Shown here: piece by piece, positions 3,205-12,160 of the stretch
Layout: each line of letters starts with the position of its first letter
Numbering within the stretch: the stretch's first letter is position 1
Source of the DNA: Convivina praedatoris
Lineage (GTDB): Bacteria > Bacillota > Bacilli > Lactobacillales > Lactobacillaceae
Reading direction: 5' to 3'
Assembly (NCBI RefSeq): GCF_933208495.1
Contig: NZ_CAKOET010000001.1
Span: 62,001 to 126,000 of the forward strand
DNA length: 64,000 nucleotides
Position numbers and translations under genes: made by a program
The notes under the pieces: model-generated
What the model saw: only the letters and a program-made list of their open reading frames with translations
What the model was told of the DNA's origin: nothing
Database searches by the model: none

Positions 3205-4449
3205 ATGGCTAAAATAATGGCGGTGAATGCGGGTAGTTCTTCCTTAAAGTTTCAACTATTGGAAATGCCAGCTGAAGAGGTTATTGCACAAGGTTTAATC
3301 GAACGAATTGGTATGGATGATGCCATTATTACGATTAAATATCAAAATGATGGTTCCGTGGTCGCAACTGAGGATATTACTTTGTCTGACGATGGGAAAA
3401 AGGCTAAGTTTAAAGTTGTTGCTCCAGTTAAAGATCACCAAGTTGCAATCAATGTAATGCTTAAGCATTTGAGTGAACTAGGAATTATTGAAAACCTTGA
3501 TGAAATCGTTGGTGTTGGACACCGTGTTGTTTCAGGTGGGGAATGGTTTAACAGTTCAGTTGTTGTTGACGAAGAAGTTTTGCATAAAATTGAGCGTTTG
3601 GCGGCTTATGCACCTTTGCATAACCCAGCCAATGCGATGGGTATTCGAGCTTTTCAAAAGATTTTGCCACACGCTGTATCAGTGGCGGTCTTTGACACTT
3701 CTTTCCATCAAACAATGCCTAAGGTTAATTACCTTTATTCCTTACCTTACCAGTACTATACTCGTTATGGAGCTCGTAAGTATGGAGCCCATGGTACTTC
3801 TCACCGTTATGTAGCCCACCGTGCTGCTGAAATGTTAGATCGTGATATTAACGATCTTAAGTTGATTACTTTGCACTTGGGTGCTGGAGCTTCAGCTACA
3901 GCCGTTCAAAACGGTAAGTCATATGATACCTCGATGGGCTTCACGCCAATGGCTGGGTTGACTATGGCCACTCGAGTTGGAGATGTTGATGCGTCATTAA
4001 TTAACTACATCCAAGAACATGAACATCTTTCAAACGAAGAAATGATGGATGTGTTGAACAAGAAGTCTGGCCTTTTGGGTATTTCAACTATCTCAAGTGA
4101 TATGCGTGATTTGGAGGCAGTTCGCGATACCAATGAGCATGCTAATTTGGCCATTGATATGTTTGTTAACCGAGTTGTTCGTTATGTTGGTCAGTACATT
4201 GCTGAAATGAACGGAGTTGACGCCATTATCTTTACCGCAGGTATTGGTGAAAATGGCTATGAAGTCCGTAAGGAAATTATTGAAAAGCTTAGCTACTTTG
4301 GTGTTACGATTGATGATGCTAAGAATACCGGTATGCGTGATGAAGCTATTGTGTCAACCGATGATTCTAAGATTAAGGTTTTGGTTGTACCTACCAATGA
4401 AGAGTTAATGATTGCTCGTGATGTACAAACTTTAATGGGCGAAAAATGA
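3205..4449 (+). CDS. ackA: Acetate kinase
   Basis: A 414-residue ASKHA-fold kinase that interconverts acetyl phosphate + ADP and acetate + ATP. The N-terminus AKIMAVNAGSSSLKFQL is the family phosphate-binding signature. Further family motifs are VGHRVVSGGEW, the catalytic HGTSHRYV region and IIFTAGIGENG. Length is normal for AckA. It provides substrate-level ATP in heterofermentative or pyruvate metabolism. It is separated from the methyltransferase by 35 bases and followed by a hairpin, so it may be co-transcribed with or independent of the com genes. Confidence 0.97.
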   Translation: MAKIMAVNAGSSSLKFQLLEMPAEEVIAQGLIERIGMDDAIITIKYQNDGSVVATEDITLSDDGKKAKFKVVAPVKDHQVAINVMLKHLSELGIIENLDEIVGVGHRVVSGGEWFNSSVVVDEEVLHKIERLAAYAPLHNPANAMGIRAFQKILPHAVSVAVFDTSFHQTMPKVNYLYSLPYQYYTRYGARKYGAHGTSHRYVAHRAAEMLDRDINDLKLITLHLGAGASATAVQNGKSYDTSMGFTPMAGLTMATRVGDVDASLINYIQEHEHLSNEEMMDVLNKKSGLLGISTISSDMRDLEAVRDTNEHANLAIDMFVNRVVRYVGQYIAEMNGVDAIIFTAGIGENGYEVRKEIIEKLSYFGVTIDDAKNTGMRDEAIVSTDDSKIKVLVVPTNEELMIARDVQTLMGEK

Positions 4450-4480: not shown

Positions 4481-4510
4481 ACCACCGGCTATAGGCTGGT
4501 TGTTTTAATT
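4481..4510 (+). terminator. Probable intrinsic terminator after ackA
   Basis: An AACCA.../...TGGTT hairpin around a CGGCTATAG loop region is followed by GTTTTAATTT. The stem is imperfect, so this is a moderate call. It lies between ackA and the next gene on the same strand. Confidence 0.55.
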
Positions 4511-4540
4511 TAAAATCCAGTTTTCATAAGGTGAATAATT

Positions 4541-5752
4541 ATGCGGGTTCAAAAAAGAAGGCGTAAGAAACGAAGTTTCTTCGTGAAATTAATGGCAGCA
4601 ATGGCGGTTATTATTATTGCCTATTTTTCTTTTAAAATTATTTCGGATACGGGTTATCAGGCCTTAAATCCCAATGATACAAAGTTTAAAGCGGTAACAA
4701 TTAAATCGGGATCAACACCGCAAGAAATGGGCGATACGCTGCAAAAAGAAAAGATTATTCGCAGTTCTCACGCCTTTGCTAAGTATGCTAAACAATATGG
4801 TTCTGAGAAGTTGATTGCTGGAACTTATTTGCTTTCAGCGGCCCAAGATGTGGAATCGATTTATAAGCAAATGACGATTGGTCCAACGGCGGCACCGCAG
4901 CTACCTGAGGGGTATGCTTATATTGGTAATACGCAAACGCCAGAGCAAACGGCTCAGTCGATTGCCACGGCAACTAATGTACCGAGTGCTAAAATTCTTC
5001 AAGCTTACGATGATAAAAATCTGATTAAGAAGATGGAAGCCAAGTATCCACAGCTTATGAAGGGAGTAAACCCTTCCGGTAAAACAACCTATAAGTTGTA
5101 TGATTACGTTTATCCCGGTGTCTATAACTTGAAGGGGTCTGGTAATGCTGATGCGGTAGTTGAAAAATTGTTAGGGATTGCCAATGATGATTTGAAGCCT
5201 TATTACTCAGAAATGAAGGCTAATGGCATTCCAGCACCAACGGTTATTTCCTTAACTTCTGTTTCTGGTAAATCTGAGTTTGAACGACGGTTGAAATTTA
5301 TTAAAAAAATTGCACCATATGCCCAAGAATTAAGTAAGGAATATGGCATCTTAGCTTCTATTTCAATTGCTCAAGCTGCCCACGAGTCGAACTGGGATAA
5401 TTCCATTTTGTCATCTAAGTACAACAACTACTATGGTGTAAAAACTCAGGACGAACGGGCTGGTAAGTCGGTTGTCTTGGAGACTAGCGAAGTTGTTGAT
5501 GGTGAGACTCAAACGCAAAAAGCTCGATTCGCAGTTTATAAGTCCTGGAAGGATAGCATGAAGCAACATGCGGAAACGTTAGCTAAGGGAAATACTTGGA
5601 ATCCGGATCAGTTTAAGGATGTCTTAGCTGCTAAGAATTATAAGCAAGCTGCCAAGGCTTTGCAGGACGATTCTTATGCGACCGATACTAATTATACTCA
5701 GCTTTTGATTAAGCTAATTGAATCTTGGAATCTAGAACAATATGATAAGTAA
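4541..5752 (+). CDS. Membrane-anchored MltG-like scaffold fused to a GH73 glucosaminidase
   Basis: 403 residues. A basic N-terminus is followed by one membrane helix (about 15-34). Residues 48-111 match the LysM-like subdomain of MltG (VTIKSGSTPQEMGDTL, AGTYLL). Residues 120-242 follow the first half of the YceG/MltG catalytic domain (YPGVYNL for the usual FPDTY). At the expected catalytic helix the family VLTLASIVEKE pattern reads VISLTSVSGKSE, so the catalytic Glu is Gly243. From about residue 255 a GH73 domain begins (IAPYAQELSKEYGI, AQAAHESNWDNS with probable acid Glu282, NNYYGVK) and runs to the C-terminus. It probably cleaves peptidoglycan glycan strands at the outer membrane face. It lies two genes from greA, near where mltG is often found. 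Confidence 0.85.
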   Translation: MRVQKRRRKKRSFFVKLMAAMAVIIIAYFSFKIISDTGYQALNPNDTKFKAVTIKSGSTPQEMGDTLQKEKIIRSSHAFAKYAKQYGSEKLIAGTYLLSAAQDVESIYKQMTIGPTAAPQLPEGYAYIGNTQTPEQTAQSIATATNVPSAKILQAYDDKNLIKKMEAKYPQLMKGVNPSGKTTYKLYDYVYPGVYNLKGSGNADAVVEKLLGIANDDLKPYYSEMKANGIPAPTVISLTSVSGKSEFERRLKFIKKIAPYAQELSKEYGILASISIAQAAHESNWDNSILSSKYNNYYGVKTQDERAGKSVVLETSEVVDGETQTQKARFAVYKSWKDSMKQHAETLAKGNTWNPDQFKDVLAAKNYKQAAKALQDDSYATDTNYTQLLIKLIESWNLEQYDK

Positions 5753-5808: not shown

Positions 5809-5837
5809 TTGTGTAAACGTTTTCACAAGTGTACAAT
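5809..5837 (+). promoter_or_regulatory. Promoter overlapped by a perfect cre site
   Basis: TTGTGT (5809-5814) and TACAAT (5832-5837) are spaced by 17 bases. TGTAAACGTTTTCA at 5812-5825 matches the CcpA operator consensus TGWAANCGNTNWCA at every position and covers the -35 element and spacer. This predicts repression of the downstream sugar porter by CcpA-HPr(Ser-P) on preferred sugars; ccpA itself starts at the end of this window. Confidence 0.88.
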
Positions 5838-5875
5838 ATCACTTGTAATTAATTTGAAAAGGAGTGGTATTTAGT

Positions 5876-6826
5876 ATGAATGCTGCAATTTTACTGGCTT
5901 TATTGCCAGCTTTGTTCTGGGGATCCGTTGGTCTTATCAGTACAAAAATGGGTGGAAGCGCTGCTCAACAGACGTTGGGTATGACCTTTGGTGCTTTACT
6001 CTTTGGATTAGGAACCATGTTTTTCTTCGTTATGCCACGAGGGATTTACCTTGGTAAAGAAATCTGGGTCGTTGGAATTCTATCTGGATTAGTTTGGGCT
6101 GTCGGAATGGCTTTCCAGTTCTTGATGTTTAAGCAGATGGGCGTTTCAATTGGAATGCCATTGTCAACGGCTGCTCAGATTATCATGAACGCTGTGATGG
6201 CTGCTACTGTCTTGGGTGAATGGATCAACATCAAGATGTGGTTGGTCGGTATCATTTCGATTGCCTTAGTTGTGTTTGGTGCTACGTTGATTTCTTTGCC
6301 TGACAAAAAGTCAGAAAAGAAAGCTGAAAGTGCTTTGAATGGTAAGGGATTGCTCTACCTAGTTATTTCAACTTTGGGCTTCATGTTGTACTTTGTTTTG
6401 CCTAATTTCTTGAGTAAAATTGAATACATTAAGCCATCAATCAAGGCTGCTAACAATGGAATTGATTATATGACCGCCATTGTGGGACCACAGGCCATTG
6501 GGCAGGTGGTCGGTGCCTTGTTGATTGCGATTTTGATTTTCCGGGAACAAAAGGTAATGTTTGCAGCGCCAACTTGGCGCAACATCTTGACTGGTTTGAC
6601 ATGGGCTTTGGGTAATATTTTCATGTTTATCTCAACTGCTGCTCCATCAATCGGTCAAACAATTGCAACTACTTTCTCACAGTTAGGTATTATCGTGGGA
6701 ACATTTGGTGGAATCTACATTTTGCATGAAAAGAAGTCGAGTGGACAGATGCGTAATATCTTAATTGGGACTGCCTTAGTTATCATCGGGGCCCTAATTA
6801 TTGGAAATATTCATAGTTTTGCTTAA
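5876..6826 (+). CDS. GRP-family sugar uptake porter (GlcU/RbsU-like)
   Basis: A 316-residue membrane protein with about ten hydrophobic helices, beginning NAAILLALLPALFWGSVGL and containing repeated small-residue-rich helices, the pattern of the glucose/ribose porter family in the drug/metabolite transporter superfamily. Members import glucose or ribose, probably with protons. I choose ATG 5876 over the upstream in-frame GTG 5864 because the GTG overlaps the Shine-Dalgarno GGAG at 5861-5864. The overlapping cre site supports a sugar substrate; which sugar cannot be read from sequence. Confidence 0.87.
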   Translation: MNAAILLALLPALFWGSVGLISTKMGGSAAQQTLGMTFGALLFGLGTMFFFVMPRGIYLGKEIWVVGILSGLVWAVGMAFQFLMFKQMGVSIGMPLSTAAQIIMNAVMAATVLGEWINIKMWLVGIISIALVVFGATLISLPDKKSEKKAESALNGKGLLYLVISTLGFMLYFVLPNFLSKIEYIKPSIKAANNGIDYMTAIVGPQAIGQVVGALLIAILIFREQKVMFAAPTWRNILTGLTWALGNIFMFISTAAPSIGQTIATTFSQLGIIVGTFGGIYILHEKKSSGQMRNILIGTALVIIGALIIGNIHSFA

Positions 6827-6827
6827 A

Positions 6828-6853
6828 ATAAAAAACGCCTAACGGCGTTTTTT
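6828..6853. terminator. Bidirectional terminator between sugar porter and greA
   Basis: AAAAAACGCC / GGCGTTTTTT around a short TAAC loop, with A-rich and T-rich flanks on both sides, can end the rightward porter transcript and the leftward greA transcript. Confidence 0.88.
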
Positions 6854-7337
6854 ATTTGGTGATAACTTTTAGAATCTTAACCTTAATGCTCTCTCCGTTA
6901 GGAAGCGGAACATTAACTGTATCGCCCGTCTTCTTACCGATTAGAGCAGCAGCCATTGGTGATTCGTTAGAAATCTTACCGGCCAATGGATCAGCTTCGA
7001 CTGAACCAACAATGGCGTAGGTTTCAGGGTCTTCATCTGGTAATTCTTGGAAAGTAACTTCTTTACCAAGTGATACTTCATCCTTAGCAGTGGCATTTGC
7101 ATTAATGATTTCAGCATTTTCAATCATTTTACGCAAAGTGATGATTCGGCCTTCGACAAAGGCTTGTTCATCCTTAGCTGATTGATATTCTGAGTTTTCT
7201 GACAAATCACCATACGAACGGGCGATTTGAATTCGTTTTGTAATTTCTGGACGTTGGTTAGTAATTAAATCATCCAGTTCTGCCTGCAGCTTATCGCGGC
7301 CCTCGGCAGTCATTGGAAATGTCTTTTCTTCTGACAT
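6852..7337 (-). CDS. greA: Transcription elongation factor GreA
   Basis: 161 residues. The N-terminal antiparallel coiled coil carries the family signature ([33 protein letters not shown]) with the acidic tip Asp/Glu that stimulates RNA polymerase transcript cleavage. The C-terminal FKBP-like domain ends [12 protein letters not shown]. GreA rescues backtracked RNA polymerase. It is transcribed leftward; the start ATG at 7337 follows a plausible AAAGGA Shine-Dalgarno. Confidence 0.97.
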
Positions 7338-7389: not shown

Positions 7390-10020
7390 TCACGGCCAGT
7401 CTATTCTTGCAAGCGGGGGGAATGGTCGGCTGATTATAATTTGACTACCCAAAATGATGAACCCAAACAAAGTAATGGTTAAACCCCAGTATAGGTAAGG
7501 TGGTGTATAGCTAAATTGGACTTGATGGCGACCGGGTTTAGTTTTAATGGCTAATAGGAAATTACCAACCTGGCTGGTGGCAACTTTTTGGCCATCAATT
7601 TTAACCTGCCAACCTGGTGCTGCTGGAATAGAAGTCATAATGACTGGCTTAGCAGTAGTGGTGGTGATGTGACCGATAATCCGATTTTCTGTCCGTTGGG
7701 TAATGGTTAGGGGATGTTGTTTTAATTGCGCGACGTCTTGGTTAATTGCTTCCTGATTTAAGTGATATAGAGCAACATTGCTGAGAGTTAAACTGGCAGC
7801 ATTACGAAGTCGAATCGTTAATTTTTGTTCCTGACCAGCTGCTTGATTAGTTAAGTTGACAATGACGGTATTTCGATATGAACTAAATTGGGTGATAACT
7901 TGATCATTGATTAATAGATCAAAGTTTTCTATTTTTAAATTACCACCTAGAGTTAAGTAATAGGGGTCATTAGTTTTAGGGGTAAACGTTAATGTTAGTG
8001 AGCCAGGCTTACTAGCATCTTGTTTCTCTAATTGGCTATTGGTGATGGTGGTTGGTAGATTGACATTATCAGCTTGGGCAAAATCAAAATCATCTTTCCT
8101 GACTAGCTGATCTTTTCGGCCAGTTAAGGATTGCCATAAACGCACTTGGTTTTGAATTGGGAGGGCACTGTTGATATCAGTTTGTAAGACTTGTTGGTTG
8201 GCTGCAAAAGCAAGGGGCAGAGCCTGCTGATTTTTGAAGATTGTTGTCGTACTAGTCTGGGCATATCGTTGGTATTGCCTGAAATCAGACCGATAGCCTG
8301 TTTTACGACTCTGAGGGCTCCCTTCCGTTTTATTAATTTGCTGACTAGGGCTGAAATAATATTTAAAGCCCAAAAGATTGTCGGTTAACACAGTACCGTT
8401 ACTATAATTAACAAAATTATCACCTTCTGGTTGGCCCATGGCCTGATAGAACTGAACCGTTTTATTGGGCATTAAGGAGCTGAAGTGGCCGCCACCATAA
8501 AAGTCTTCCATCATACTATCGCCGCGGGTACGTTGATAGGTTTGCCCAACTCGATACCAGCTCTGATCACTCTGGATTTTATTTTTATCAGCTTTTAGGG
8601 CGGTAATTGTAGTTTGGTAATCACTTAAACTGATATAGGAAAAATTATTTAGAGTGGTGGAGATATTAGTAGTCAGACTGACACAAGTAATGAAGGCCAG
8701 TAATCCTAGACGAAGGTAATGGGGCATGGGTGCGGTAATGACTAGTATACAAATTGAGCTCAATAGCCAAAAAATTAAGATATTATTGTTCGTTAGAAAA
8801 TTGAGCTGTTTGAGTTGGCTTAGGGCGTATAGAGTTATGGCGGTAACGATGGCAAATAAGATGGAGCAGGTGAGAATTCTCGGTTGCCAATTGGGACGAA
8901 AGCCCCAAGCAGCTAAGAAGATTAAGAAAAAACTAATTAGGAAACTAAAACGGTAAGGATACCAGACTGGATACTGACCACCGTGAAAGGCAAGAGTTAG
9001 TGGAGCCCAACAGGTTGCTAAGATAAGAATTGCTAACAAGAGTAGTGCAGTTAGTTTGCTTACATAAGAAATGGTTCGATTGGTAACAAAAGCCCCCAAG
9101 GCTACCAAAACAAAGGCGGAGATAAAAATATTAGCCTGTCCATTTTGCATTTGCTCAAAATCAAAGCTGCCGGGAATTAGTTTAGTCAGTAGATGTAAGG
9201 GATTATTTTCAAAAGCCAAGCTCCAAGCGGAATTATGACCAATTTTTCCCTGTTGGAGCTGAAAGTAAGCTGGTAAAATTAGCCAAGCTGACAGGGCTCC
9301 ACCCAAGGCGCTTTGACCAATGAAAAGTAAAGGAATTTTTATTTTTTTGTAGGCTAATTGAGGAAAGCGCCAGAGGGTATATAAGACGATGAAAATCACC
9401 ACCATAAAGGCGATGTAGTAGTTGCTAGTGATGGTTAGGAATAAGAGGAGACTGTAAGGCCAGCTCTTTTTACCCCGTAAGAGAGCCTCTAAGGCTAAAA
9501 TTAACAATGGTAGTAAGATTGCAGTATCCAACCATAGTAAATTTAGATCATTGGCAATAAACCAACCGCTAAGGGGGTAGGAGATGGCAAAAAGACTAAT
9601 ATAGTAGCTATGTTGGAGTTTTAGTCGCTGAATGAGATAGGCCATGCTCAATCCGGCGAAACCAAATTTAAAAACGGTTACCCATAAAATTGCACTAGGT
9701 AACTGTAAATCGCTAACAAACAAGAAGATAATATTAAATGGACTCATTAGGTAATAGGCCCATTCACCCAACATATCCCCACCTAGGGCACTACTAAAGG
9801 AGTAGAGAAAACTACTGGGATGATTTACTAAGGCGGCTTTGAAAGCAGCAAATTGATCAATATATTGCTGGCCGAGATCGACGGTTAAAATAGTGCTAGT
9901 GCCAAAGGGCGCCATTCCGCGATTGGCAAAATAGCCCGTCATAAAAATGATTGGGAGCCAAAAAGAAATGGCTAAAGGGGAAAGTAAGTATTTTTGAGTA
10001 AATTTACTAATTTTTTGCAT
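7390..10020 (-). CDS. YfhO-family multi-pass membrane protein (GT-C type)
   Basis: About 876 residues from ATG 10020; an upstream in-frame TTG at 10059 adds 13 residues, and neither start has a strong RBS. It has about a dozen hydrophobic helices in the first 480 residues, a large extracytoplasmic domain, and a final helix near the C-terminus. The N-terminal VDLGQQYIDQFAAF and SFSSALGGDMLGEWAYYL match YfhO proteins. In Bacillus subtilis, YfhO acts with CsbB/GtcA-type proteins to glycosylate lipoteichoic acid, so a cell-surface polymer glycosyltransferase role is likely. It is divergent from the PBP gene. Confidence 0.85.
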   Translation of the reverse strand: MQKISKFTQKYLLSPLAISFWLPIIFMTGYFANRGMAPFGTSTILTVDLGQQYIDQFAAFKAALVNHPSSFLYSFSSALGGDMLGEWAYYLMSPFNIIFLFVSDLQLPSAILWVTVFKFGFAGLSMAYLIQRLKLQHSYYISLFAISYPLSGWFIANDLNLLWLDTAILLPLLILALEALLRGKKSWPYSLLLFLTITSNYYIAFMVVIFIVLYTLWRFPQLAYKKIKIPLLFIGQSALGGALSAWLILPAYFQLQQGKIGHNSAWSLAFENNPLHLLTKLIPGSFDFEQMQNGQANIFISAFVLVALGAFVTNRTISYVSKLTALLLLAILILATCWAPLTLAFHGGQYPVWYPYRFSFLISFFLIFLAAWGFRPNWQPRILTCSILFAIVTAITLYALSQLKQLNFLTNNNILIFWLLSSICILVITAPMPHYLRLGLLAFITCVSLTTNISTTLNNFSYISLSDYQTTITALKADKNKIQSDQSWYRVGQTYQRTRGDSMMEDFYGGGHFSSLMPNKTVQFYQAMGQPEGDNFVNYSNGTVLTDNLLGFKYYFSPSQQINKTEGSPQSRKTGYRSDFRQYQRYAQTSTTTIFKNQQALPLAFAANQQVLQTDINSALPIQNQVRLWQSLTGRKDQLVRKDDFDFAQADNVNLPTTITNSQLEKQDASKPGSLTLTFTPKTNDPYYLTLGGNLKIENFDLLINDQVITQFSSYRNTVIVNLTNQAAGQEQKLTIRLRNAASLTLSNVALYHLNQEAINQDVAQLKQHPLTITQRTENRIIGHITTTTAKPVIMTSIPAAPGWQVKIDGQKVATSQVGNFLLAIKTKPGRHQVQFSYTPPYLYWGLTITLFGFIILGSQIIISRPFPPLARIDWP

Positions 10021-10117
10021 GAGTTTAGGATACCAAAAACTACCTTTTTTTAGCGACAAAAATTGGATTTATGGTAAAGTAAATAGGACTATTATCACGA
10101 ATTTTTGGTGAGGAATC

Positions 10118-12160
10118 ATGAAACCTAATCCCTATTTAGAAAACCGAAATAAAAACGATGCACGGGCTAACTTACCGAACCGATTAAAAATCTTATTAGG
10201 GGTTGTTTTAGCGCTAATGGCACTCTTAGTGGTGCAATTGGCTTTTTTAACGATTAAACAAGGGCCAGATTTTCAAGCCGAGGTAAAGCGTAGTGATGAG
10301 ACTGTTGAAAAGGGGAATTCCCCGCGTGGTCTTATTTACGATACAACCGGCCGTGTGATTACTGGTAATAAACCCCAAACGGCTGTGACTTACACTCGTG
10401 GAAAGGCAACAACGTCGACTCAAATTGCCAAAATTGCGGCAGGTCTTTCTAAGTATTTAACTATTGATACTAAGCGCTTGAGTGATCGTTCTAAAGCTGA
10501 TTATTATCTAACGATCCATCCTAAGCAGGCTACTAAGATCCAAGCAATTATTGAAAAAGAATATCCCAAAGCCTCCAAGAGTTGGACAACGACTCAATTG
10601 AATACTGCCATGTCTAAATATGTTCAGCAACAAGGCTTAGATAAAGAGGTTGATGCCAACCAGGCCATGATTTTTCAGCGTATGAGTGGGGCCTACGCTT
10701 TGTCAACAACCTTCATTCAAGAATCAGGCGTTAGTGATCAGTCTCAAGCTGAAATTGGTGAACATCTCGGAGATTTCCCAGGAGTGAAGATTGGTTCCAG
10801 TTGGACTCGTGATTACCCGCAAGGTGATGATTTCCAGCCTTTGGTAGGAACGGTGACGGATGAAGCGACTGGTTTGCCGGCTGATCGTTTACACACCTTA
10901 CTAGCTCAAGGTTATTCGCAAAATGAACCGGTTGGTAGCAATGCCTTAGAAAAACAGTATGAAAGTATTTTGAAGGGTTCTCCTTCGCAAACCTTAATTA
11001 CTAGTAATGCCAACGGCCTTAAGACCAGTAAAGTTAAGTACGAAGGACAGGCCGGTGATAGCTTGAAGCTAACGATTAATTCTGAATTCCAGAAGAAAGT
11101 TCAGCAAATTTTAGATAGTAATATCCCTGGTGGTAATGTGCAAGGAATTTATACAACCGTAATTAATCCATATACTGGTGGGATTTATGCCATGGCTGGG
11201 GTTAATCGGGATTCGTCGACAGGTAAGAAAACGGCTAATCCGCTGGGAAATATTAATCAGGGGATTGTTATGGGATCGGTGGTTAAGCCAGCTATCCTAG
11301 CCACTGGCTTCCAAAAGGGTATTATCACTGCCAGCAATAATACAATGTATGATCAGGCGATTAAAATTGCCGGAACCCCAGTGATTACTTCTTACTGGAA
11401 CAAGGCTGGTACGCCAACGGCCATTGATGCTTTGACTGCCTTAGAGCGTTCTTCTAACACTTACTTTGTTCAGTTGGGAATGAAAATTGGTGGTCAAACC
11501 TACGTGCCTGGTGAGCATTTGGCATTGGATAGTGATGCTTTCCAAACCCTTCGAAATGGGTTAGCTCAATTTGGTTTGGGGACAAAAACTGGTATTGATA
11601 TCGAAGGTGAAACTGCCGGTTATCGAGGACCTACCACTGGCGAGGCTCAAGGTAAGTATCTATATGAGTCCTTTGGACAGTATGATTCCTATACAACTCT
11701 CCAGTTGGCTCGCTATGTTTCCACGATTGCTAATGGTGGTTATCTGGTTCGGCCGCACTTGGTCGGATCAGTCCTCCAAAATGATATTAGCAACAAACAC
11801 CAAAAAGAAGTTTGGGCGGCAACACCCCAGTTGCAAGGTCAAGTCCAGTTAACTGCCGACCAGTGGAATGTCATTCATAAGGGGATGGAGCGCGTTGCCA
11901 ATGGAACTGACCCCAATAACACTGGTGGTGGGGTGCATAATTTGCAGCCACGGGTTTATGCTAAGACTGGAACGGCGGAAACGACAACCAACGGTAATTC
12001 AACCTTTACAGAGTCGATTGTCGTCTATGTACCAGGTCAGCCATTTGCCATGGCCATGGCAATTCCAGGCATGGATAGCTACCTAGATGGAACCAATGGC
12101 CGTGTTGCATCAGAAATTATCAATGCTTTCTGGGACACAGTCATGCAAAAGCCATCTTAA
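10118..12160 (+). CDS. Class B penicillin-binding protein (transpeptidase, PBP2-type)
   Basis: 680 residues with a short cytoplasmic tail and one membrane helix (about 23-46), then the pedestal domain opening SPRGLIYDTTGRVI. The transpeptidase domain has the three penicillin-binding motifs: SVVK with the acylated Ser387 and Lys390, SSN in LERSSNTYF, and KTGT in VYAKTGTAETT. No transglycosylase or PASTA domain is present. It crosslinks peptidoglycan stems outside the membrane, probably in septal or elongation complexes (PBP2B-like). It has its own terminator. Confidence 0.93.
   Translation: MKPNPYLENRNKNDARANLPNRLKILLGVVLALMALLVVQLAFLTIKQGPDFQAEVKRSDETVEKGNSPRGLIYDTTGRVITGNKPQTAVTYTRGKATTSTQIAKIAAGLSKYLTIDTKRLSDRSKADYYLTIHPKQATKIQAIIEKEYPKASKSWTTTQLNTAMSKYVQQQGLDKEVDANQAMIFQRMSGAYALSTTFIQESGVSDQSQAEIGEHLGDFPGVKIGSSWTRDYPQGDDFQPLVGTVTDEATGLPADRLHTLLAQGYSQNEPVGSNALEKQYESILKGSPSQTLITSNANGLKTSKVKYEGQAGDSLKLTINSEFQKKVQQILDSNIPGGNVQGIYTTVINPYTGGIYAMAGVNRDSSTGKKTANPLGNINQGIVMGSVVKPAILATGFQKGIITASNNTMYDQAIKIAGTPVITSYWNKAGTPTAIDALTALERSSNTYFVQLGMKIGGQTYVPGEHLALDSDAFQTLRNGLAQFGLGTKTGIDIEGETAGYRGPTTGEAQGKYLYESFGQYDSYTTLQLARYVSTIANGGYLVRPHLVGSVLQNDISNKHQKEVWAATPQLQGQVQLTADQWNVIHKGMERVANGTDPNNTGGGVHNLQPRVYAKTGTAETTTNGNSTFTESIVVYVPGQPFAMAMAIPGMDSYLDGTNGRVASEIINAFWDTVMQKPS

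Follow-up and report, generated by a model that had tools for sequence, protein, structure and literature searches.

In Bacillus subtilis and Escherichia coli, the enzyme MltG cuts nascent glycan into strands of about seven disaccharides. A strand-binding role is proposed for its LysM part, some 44 Å from the active site, and the distance between the two is discussed as a factor in strand length (excerpts of PMC8135044). In Streptococcus pneumoniae, MltG has been reported as a muramidase, MpgA (excerpts of PMC10269899). For Staphylococcus aureus, a model has been put forward in which nascent strands are released at a physiological length by the membrane glucosaminidase SagB on its scaffold SpdC (excerpts of PMC10581084).

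The gene described here lies in a window of 64,000 nucleotides, the whole stretch of Convivina praedatoris DNA that was analysed. Its product resembles MltG and MpgA (YceG family, PF02618; Listeria Lmo1499, PDB 4IIW) in its membrane helix, its LysM-like part, the first half of its YceG domain and the greA, YfhO and penicillin-binding protein (PBP) genes nearby. Unlike them, it has no catalytic Glu, and the second half of the YceG domain is absent, with a GH73 domain in its place. MpgA is reportedly the subject of a study by Taguchi et al. 2021. With SagB, the product shares the predicted character of a membrane-tethered glucosaminidase; going by the published descriptions, the CAAX-protease-type membrane scaffold SpdC is a separate protein in S. 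aureus, whereas the MltG module is fused here. The GH73 domain is of the type found in Auto (3fi7), AtlA (7qfu) and FlgJ (5dn5), with its conserved Glu residues in the alignments to Auto and FlgJ. In contrast to these PDB chains, which hold the catalytic domain only, it is linked to the helix, LysM-like part and YceG half of an MltG.

Among the open-access titles and abstract openings on MltG/YceG together with GH73/glucosaminidase, none reports a fusion of this kind, subscription papers being mostly outside the scope of that search. Each part was known before; their combination is new. A 437-aa AtlA-related “1,4-beta-N-acetylmuramidase”, KGB51092, is mentioned for Leuconostoc mesenteroides P45 (excerpts of PMC4906094); it would fit as a candidate for this fusion protein, by length alone.

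Architecture of the Fusion Gene

The gene and the parts of its product are as follows, all on the plus strand.

4528-4533, plus strand: AAGGTG, resembling a ribosome-binding site, 7 bases 5' of the ATG (read by eye)
4541-5752, plus strand: whole fusion gene, 403 aa, from the ATG start through the stop codon (open reading frame, homologues)
4568-4642, plus strand: predicted single membrane helix, residues 10-34 (helix 10-34 in the model, hydrophobic run from residue 11)
4682-4882, plus strand: MltG LysM-like subdomain, residues 48-114 (Pfam, model, Foldseek)
4883-5269, plus strand: first half of the YceG catalytic domain, residues 115-243, ending in the helix of the MltG catalytic Glu
5267-5269, plus strand: codon of Gly243, at the place of the MltG catalytic Glu (profile alignment)
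5291-5749, plus strand: complete GH73 domain, residues 251-403 (Pfam, fold comparison)
5384-5386, plus strand: codon of Glu282 in the GH73 domain, opposite the AQAxxES Glu of Auto (3fi7) and FlgJ (5dn5) in the alignment
5489-5491, plus strand: codon of Glu317, the second conserved acid of the GH73 domain (alignment; model confidence is low here)

The preliminary description had read a single frame running from a membrane helix through a LysM-like part and half a YceG domain into GH73. The ATG-started frame of 403 aa and its Pfam matches bear this out. The YceG match covers residues 52-237 and positions 1-157 of the 275 of the profile (E 2.2e-13), and the Glucosaminidase match covers residues 258-398 and the full profile (E 1.6e-31), both above cut-off. 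Both the membrane helix and the LysM-like subdomain of MltG are present, the second half of the YceG domain is absent, and the protein does not carry a complete YceG domain. The NCBIfam model for MltG stays below its threshold, with 49.2 bits against a cut-off of 103.4 over residues 11-226 only. The join, placed earlier right behind a helix at about base 5270, indeed falls directly after the helix of Gly243, near base 5270-5290, and the motif VISLTSVSGKSE is found in the translation.

The loss of the catalytic Glu at Gly243, also part of the preliminary description, holds in a wider comparison. In a profile alignment, the catalytic column carries Glu in 33/33 intact MltG rows and Gly243 in the window protein, and this Gly is invariant in the 14 fusions of a separate alignment (A1). 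Most Leuconostoc rows are gapped ahead of the Glu column in the alignment to intact MltGs, and their Gly is that of alignment A1; for the fusions of genus label g2, the profile aligner puts another Glu in the column by way of a three-residue gap, and the ungapped residue is Gly. Since the remainder of the YceG domain is unmatched in all the fusions, MltG catalysis is not expected in them.

Fold of the Two Halves

When residues 38-250 were modelled alone (mean pLDDT 89), the result was MltG-like, and an unrelated fold, which the preliminary description had named as a refutation, was not found. The model matches Listeria Lmo1499 MltG (4IIW) with a Foldseek E of 1.3e-10 and a Z of 11.3 over 193 residues (rmsd 10.9), and MltG 8YOA with a Z of 8.4 (rmsd 10.1). 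The two Z values obtained against 4IIW, 11.6 and 11.3, both come with an rmsd near 11 Å, which probably reflects a different angle between the subdomains in the model. The profile match to the 4IIW sequence (E 4.7e-26) is stronger evidence than the structural Z.

In the full model, the GH73 part resembles AtlA (7QFU), with a Z of 17.7 over 150 residues (rmsd 2.7), and Auto (3FI7), with a Z of 17.4; model confidence is low at residues 286-297 and 317-319. Glu282 and Glu317, which we take to be the GH73 catalytic residues, are invariant in 14/14 fusions and both align with Glu residues of Auto. Sequence and models show a complete GH73 domain with conserved acids, of a putative N-acetylglucosaminidase.

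Distribution of the Fusion

The preliminary description had left open whether relatives have the same fusion. A fusion profile search found matches spanning both parts in 37 of 397 Lactobacillaceae genomes, distributed by genus label as g16 (19/19), g2 (13/13), g1 (2/2), g56 (2/2) and g7 (1/1). Every sampled genome of these five labels has the fusion, Convivina (g1) and Leuconostoc (g16) among them; one g56 carrier (G094) is Lactobacillaceae bacterium L1_55_11. Among the other labels used below, g2 may be Fructobacillus, g29 Oenococcus and g6 Weissella. The fusion matches are well separated, the weakest having an E of 1.6e-157 and the next row, with GH73 only, 8.7e-66. YceG scores in all 37 genomes are weak and of the half type (E 1.1e-11 to 1.0e-19). 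No internal stop is present in 35 of the matches. As to the other two, the match in G370, a very fragmented assembly (about 890 contigs), is broken by three stops and begins at profile position 71 only, and the matched stretch of G002 contains a single stop, its 394-aa open reading frame itself being open. The fusion is not a chance join because 37/397 genomes match across both parts, 35 of them without a stop.

Beyond the window genome, no fusion was found among 398 genomes drawn class-wide at a cut-off of E 1e-63, a sample in which the other known fusion genomes were absent and a cut-off that short fusions of the g29 type fail. Convergent or short fusions could thus exist elsewhere.

The cytosolic tail differs among carriers. 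In Leuconostoc fusions (for example L036-L046 and L048) and in L050 it starts M(E/Q)SRKx(R/K)HQHEI. This is near SRxxR(R/K), given as a GpsB-binding motif (excerpts of PMC6335420), but with His in the last place. The motif is missing from the window protein, from L035 and from the g2 rows seen.

The Locus and Its Neighbors

The genes and signals around the fusion gene in the window are the following.

3205-4449, plus strand: ackA-like acetate kinase gene, conserved upstream neighbor
4484-4500, plus strand: terminator-like hairpin in the gap between ackA and the fusion gene (hairpin search)
5825-5846, plus strand: terminator-like hairpin 3' of the fusion gene (hairpin search)
5864-6826, plus strand: gene of a multi-pass sugar-transporter-like protein, downstream neighbor
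6852-7337, minus strand: greA-like gene, a neighbor common to intact mltG loci
7390-10059, minus strand: gene of a YfhO-like membrane protein, the next neighbor in common with mltG loci
10118-12160, plus strand: penicillin-binding-protein-like gene, the next common neighbor, 44% identical over 676 residues to that of g29

The names of the neighbors (ackA, sugar transporter, greA, YfhO, PBP and a methyltransferase) are putative and draw on mutual similarity. Between positions 4300 and 5950, terminator-like hairpins occur at four sites, against a mean of 1.0 in shuffles. Further 5', ahead of the methyltransferase and ackA, positions 32-2155 hold a run of small open reading frames with prepilin-like hydrophobic N-termini, presumably a comG competence operon.

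Three family genomes with an intact MltG (L094-L096) show the order pheS-pheT-mltG-(udk)-greA, then YfhO, and a PBP gene past YfhO in the two whose stretch extends far enough. Within the reach of each stretch, fusion loci follow the order methyltransferase-ackA-(adhE)-fusion-(transporter)-greA-YfhO-PBP, with adhE following ackA in the three g29 loci read, several extra genes separating the fusion from greA in L048, and no PBP recognised after YfhO in L044. Thus, the fusion locus retains the neighbors of mltG in the direction of greA, which itself is inverted, and pheS-pheT are not adjoining. The preliminary description had placed the gene near greA, which is found at 6852-7337 on the minus strand, and had suggested that it perhaps takes the place of mltG. 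The second suggestion agrees with the greA, YfhO and PBP neighbors common to intact mltG loci and with the lack of another MltG in the genome.

Other YceG and GH73 Genes in the Same Genome

In the window genome (1.52 Mb, 98.45% complete), the fusion gene itself is the single YceG match. A profile search of the rest of this genome for a second YceG or an intact MltG found none; an intact mltG elsewhere, together with evidence that the N-terminal region is a common GH73 spacer, was the other result named beforehand as speaking against the fusion's proposed role, so that neither has been seen. One 1489-aa frame of the same genome has a weak SLT-domain match (E 1.4e-6).

GH73 matches number two, the fusion gene and one free GH73 (G000:C1:152492-152941), which has ABC transporter genes on one side and a pcrA-like helicase gene on the other. 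Its product is a single-pass membrane protein related to the fusion, its GH73 domain falling in the tree group adjoining the fused ones, but it consists of a helix and GH73 without the MltG module. An extra match of the GH73-only type was counted in all 37 fusion genomes and is a free membrane GH73 where rows were inspected. In G007, this free gene (G007:C11:16055-16492, L123) is interrupted by a TGA, maybe a sequencing error, and the fusion is the intact near relative left beside it.

Origin and Selection

In a midpoint-rooted tree of 71 GH73 domains, those of the half-YceG fusions (20) form one clade (100/98), those of the g29 fusions (5) another (100/99), and both types together one clade with moderate support (96/81). 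The adjoining clade consists of 10 free membrane GH73s of the full-fusion genera (97/87), all 35 domains together being supported at 96/95. A longer branch in another part of the tree carries the free GH73s of g29, apart from the free copies of the other fusion genomes. Because the fused GH73s form one clade beside free GH73s, a resident membrane glucosaminidase was probably copied onto MltG once, before these genera split. The simplest reading of the g29 form is then that the YceG half was deleted later in that lineage. A tree of the LysM-like part separates all fusion N-parts from a second group (100/99), made up of intact MltGs and the remnants of g6 and g34. With few columns, long branches and a midpoint root, it is compatible with a single fusion only as weak evidence, and it is a poor guide to how much of the fusion N-part goes back to the family's own MltG.

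Among seven close pairs, dN/dS is 0.008-0.105 for the YceG half (five pairs computable), 0.011 to 0.064 for the LysM-like part (six pairs) and 0.005 to 0.025 for GH73 (four pairs). For the YceG half, the pairs window/L035 and L. rapi/L. miyukkimchii are saturated, and a dS above 1.7 makes the values rough for L. lactis/holzapfelii and L. palmae/citreum. These low ratios indicate that the YceG half is under purifying selection, looser than that on GH73. Compared with the window protein, the fusions of six Leuconostoc loci are 42-49% identical in the YceG half and 75-80% in GH73.

Reduced Forms and Loss of MltG

Besides INTERMEDIATE, reduced forms occur, a short fusion in g29 and LysM-like remnants in g6. 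In 5/5 g29 genomes tested, a frame of about 290 aa joins the LysM-like part straight to GH73 without the YceG half, Pfam domains having been run on one of the five. In g6, 7 of 12 tested genomes keep only a short open reading frame with a membrane helix and the LysM-like part, and 5 have none. The g6 remnant, in the six loci read, and the remnant of G034 lie between pheT and udk or greA, in the old place of mltG.

A YceG match is present in 364 of the 397 family genomes and absent from 33, none of which has a half-YceG fusion (20 listed directly, 13 by comparison of the fusion and YceG searches). These 33 belong to g54 (14), g6 (9), g26 (8), g22 (1) and g29 (1), the g22 genome being a fragmented assembly and the g29 genome 68% complete. 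In complete genomes of g54 and g26 (for example G120 and G308, single contigs), YceG is absent though genus-mates have an intact MltG; a widely conserved wall enzyme is lost repeatedly within one genus there. Such loss without replacement in relatives weakens the claim that the swap was needed.

Ten order-level relatives (G037, G042, G043, G045, G048, G050, G052, G055, G056, and G058) have an intact MltG plus an extra short open reading frame with the LysM-like part only (frames of 127-225 aa), with a stop inside the matched stretch in 7 of 11 rows. Stand-alone LysM-like membrane proteins may therefore form a wider class.

Possible Function and Alternative Explanations

By sequence and models, the fusion is an MltG whose catalytic half was swapped for a GH73 domain; it would carry out the nascent-glycan release of MltG, a reading that we consider fairly probable. 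The helix and LysM-like part would hold the enzyme at glycan strands just leaving their synthases, the inert YceG half would act as a spacer or a partner surface, and the GH73 domain would cut the strand so that it ends in GlcNAc and not in MurNAc or anhydro-MurNAc. This mode of action would be like that of S. aureus SagB, the MltG module taking over from SpdC as the scaffold. More likely than not, the fusion trims or releases nascent strands in the manner of MltG, with GlcNAc ends as the outcome, and so combines the anchor of MltG with the chemistry of SagB. The preliminary description had proposed a glycan-release enzyme in which a dead MltG scaffold positions a different hydrolase, perhaps in place of mltG. 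Its anatomical and evolutionary parts are borne out by the missing Glu, the fold, the neighbors and the lack of another MltG in the genome. The release of nascent strands and the positioning of GH73 may be right as well, but both are tempered by the g29 form and by the 33/397 genomes without YceG. The g29 lineage indicates that the YceG half is not always needed, and since 33/397 genomes have neither YceG nor the fusion and 7/12 g6 genomes keep remnants only, loss of MltG need not be offset by a fusion. The free membrane GH73 beside the fusion could also do the same work. These relatives without MltG or fusion and the free GH73 present alongside are the main doubts.

The same observations lend some weight to another explanation, that the MltG half was inherited only as a membrane anchor and the fusion is an ordinary autolysin of cell separation or turnover, nascent strands being released by other enzymes, if any. 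The g29 genomes without a YceG half, the 33/397 relatives with neither a YceG match nor a fusion, and the faster change of the YceG half (42-49% identity vs. 75-80% in GH73) would all follow from it. However, the YceG half is still under purifying selection, and the LysM-like part, for which a mere anchor has no need, persists in the fusions read and, on its own, at the old mltG place of six g6 loci, so that we find this explanation rather unlikely. Selection kept on a region in which MltG catalysis is not expected could instead mean that the YceG half has acquired a role of its own, in binding a PBP or another partner or in gating GH73, the fusion then being a component of a regulated complex and not a substitute for MltG. 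PBP1A crosslinks are also fewer with a catalytically inactive E. coli MltG (excerpts of PMC8135044), a sign that the scaffold is able to act when it does not cut, but the g29 form lacks the region altogether, and we hold this to be improbable. Lastly, stops in G370 (three) and in G002 (one in the matched stretch) could point to a faulty assembly, a pseudogene or a join by chance. Such an origin is hardly credible given 35/37 stop-free matches, the same neighbors in independent assemblies and purifying selection with low dN/dS, and a pseudogene or assembly error was ruled out on these grounds.

Returning to the fusion as a re-armed MltG, its helix and LysM-like subdomain might, as a tentative and somewhat doubtful generalization, be an exchangeable module that targets nascent glycan, which within Lactobacillaceae was re-armed with an unrelated hydrolase in the Leuconostoc group, shortened in g29 and deprived of catalysis in g6. 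If so, strand length would be set by the distance from module to active site, and lineages with and without the YceG half would differ in the lengths of their GlcNAc-ended strands.

Implications

The fusion bears on how new wall strands are terminated and set free by bacteria and on what determines the length of these strands. It seems to offer a natural test of the ruler idea, the anchor being the same and both the enzyme and its distance different, with the g29 lineage, which has no spacer, as a further case. The swap would show that evolution can exchange the bond that is cut, with a GlcNAc end in place of a MurNAc end, and leave the site of action the same.
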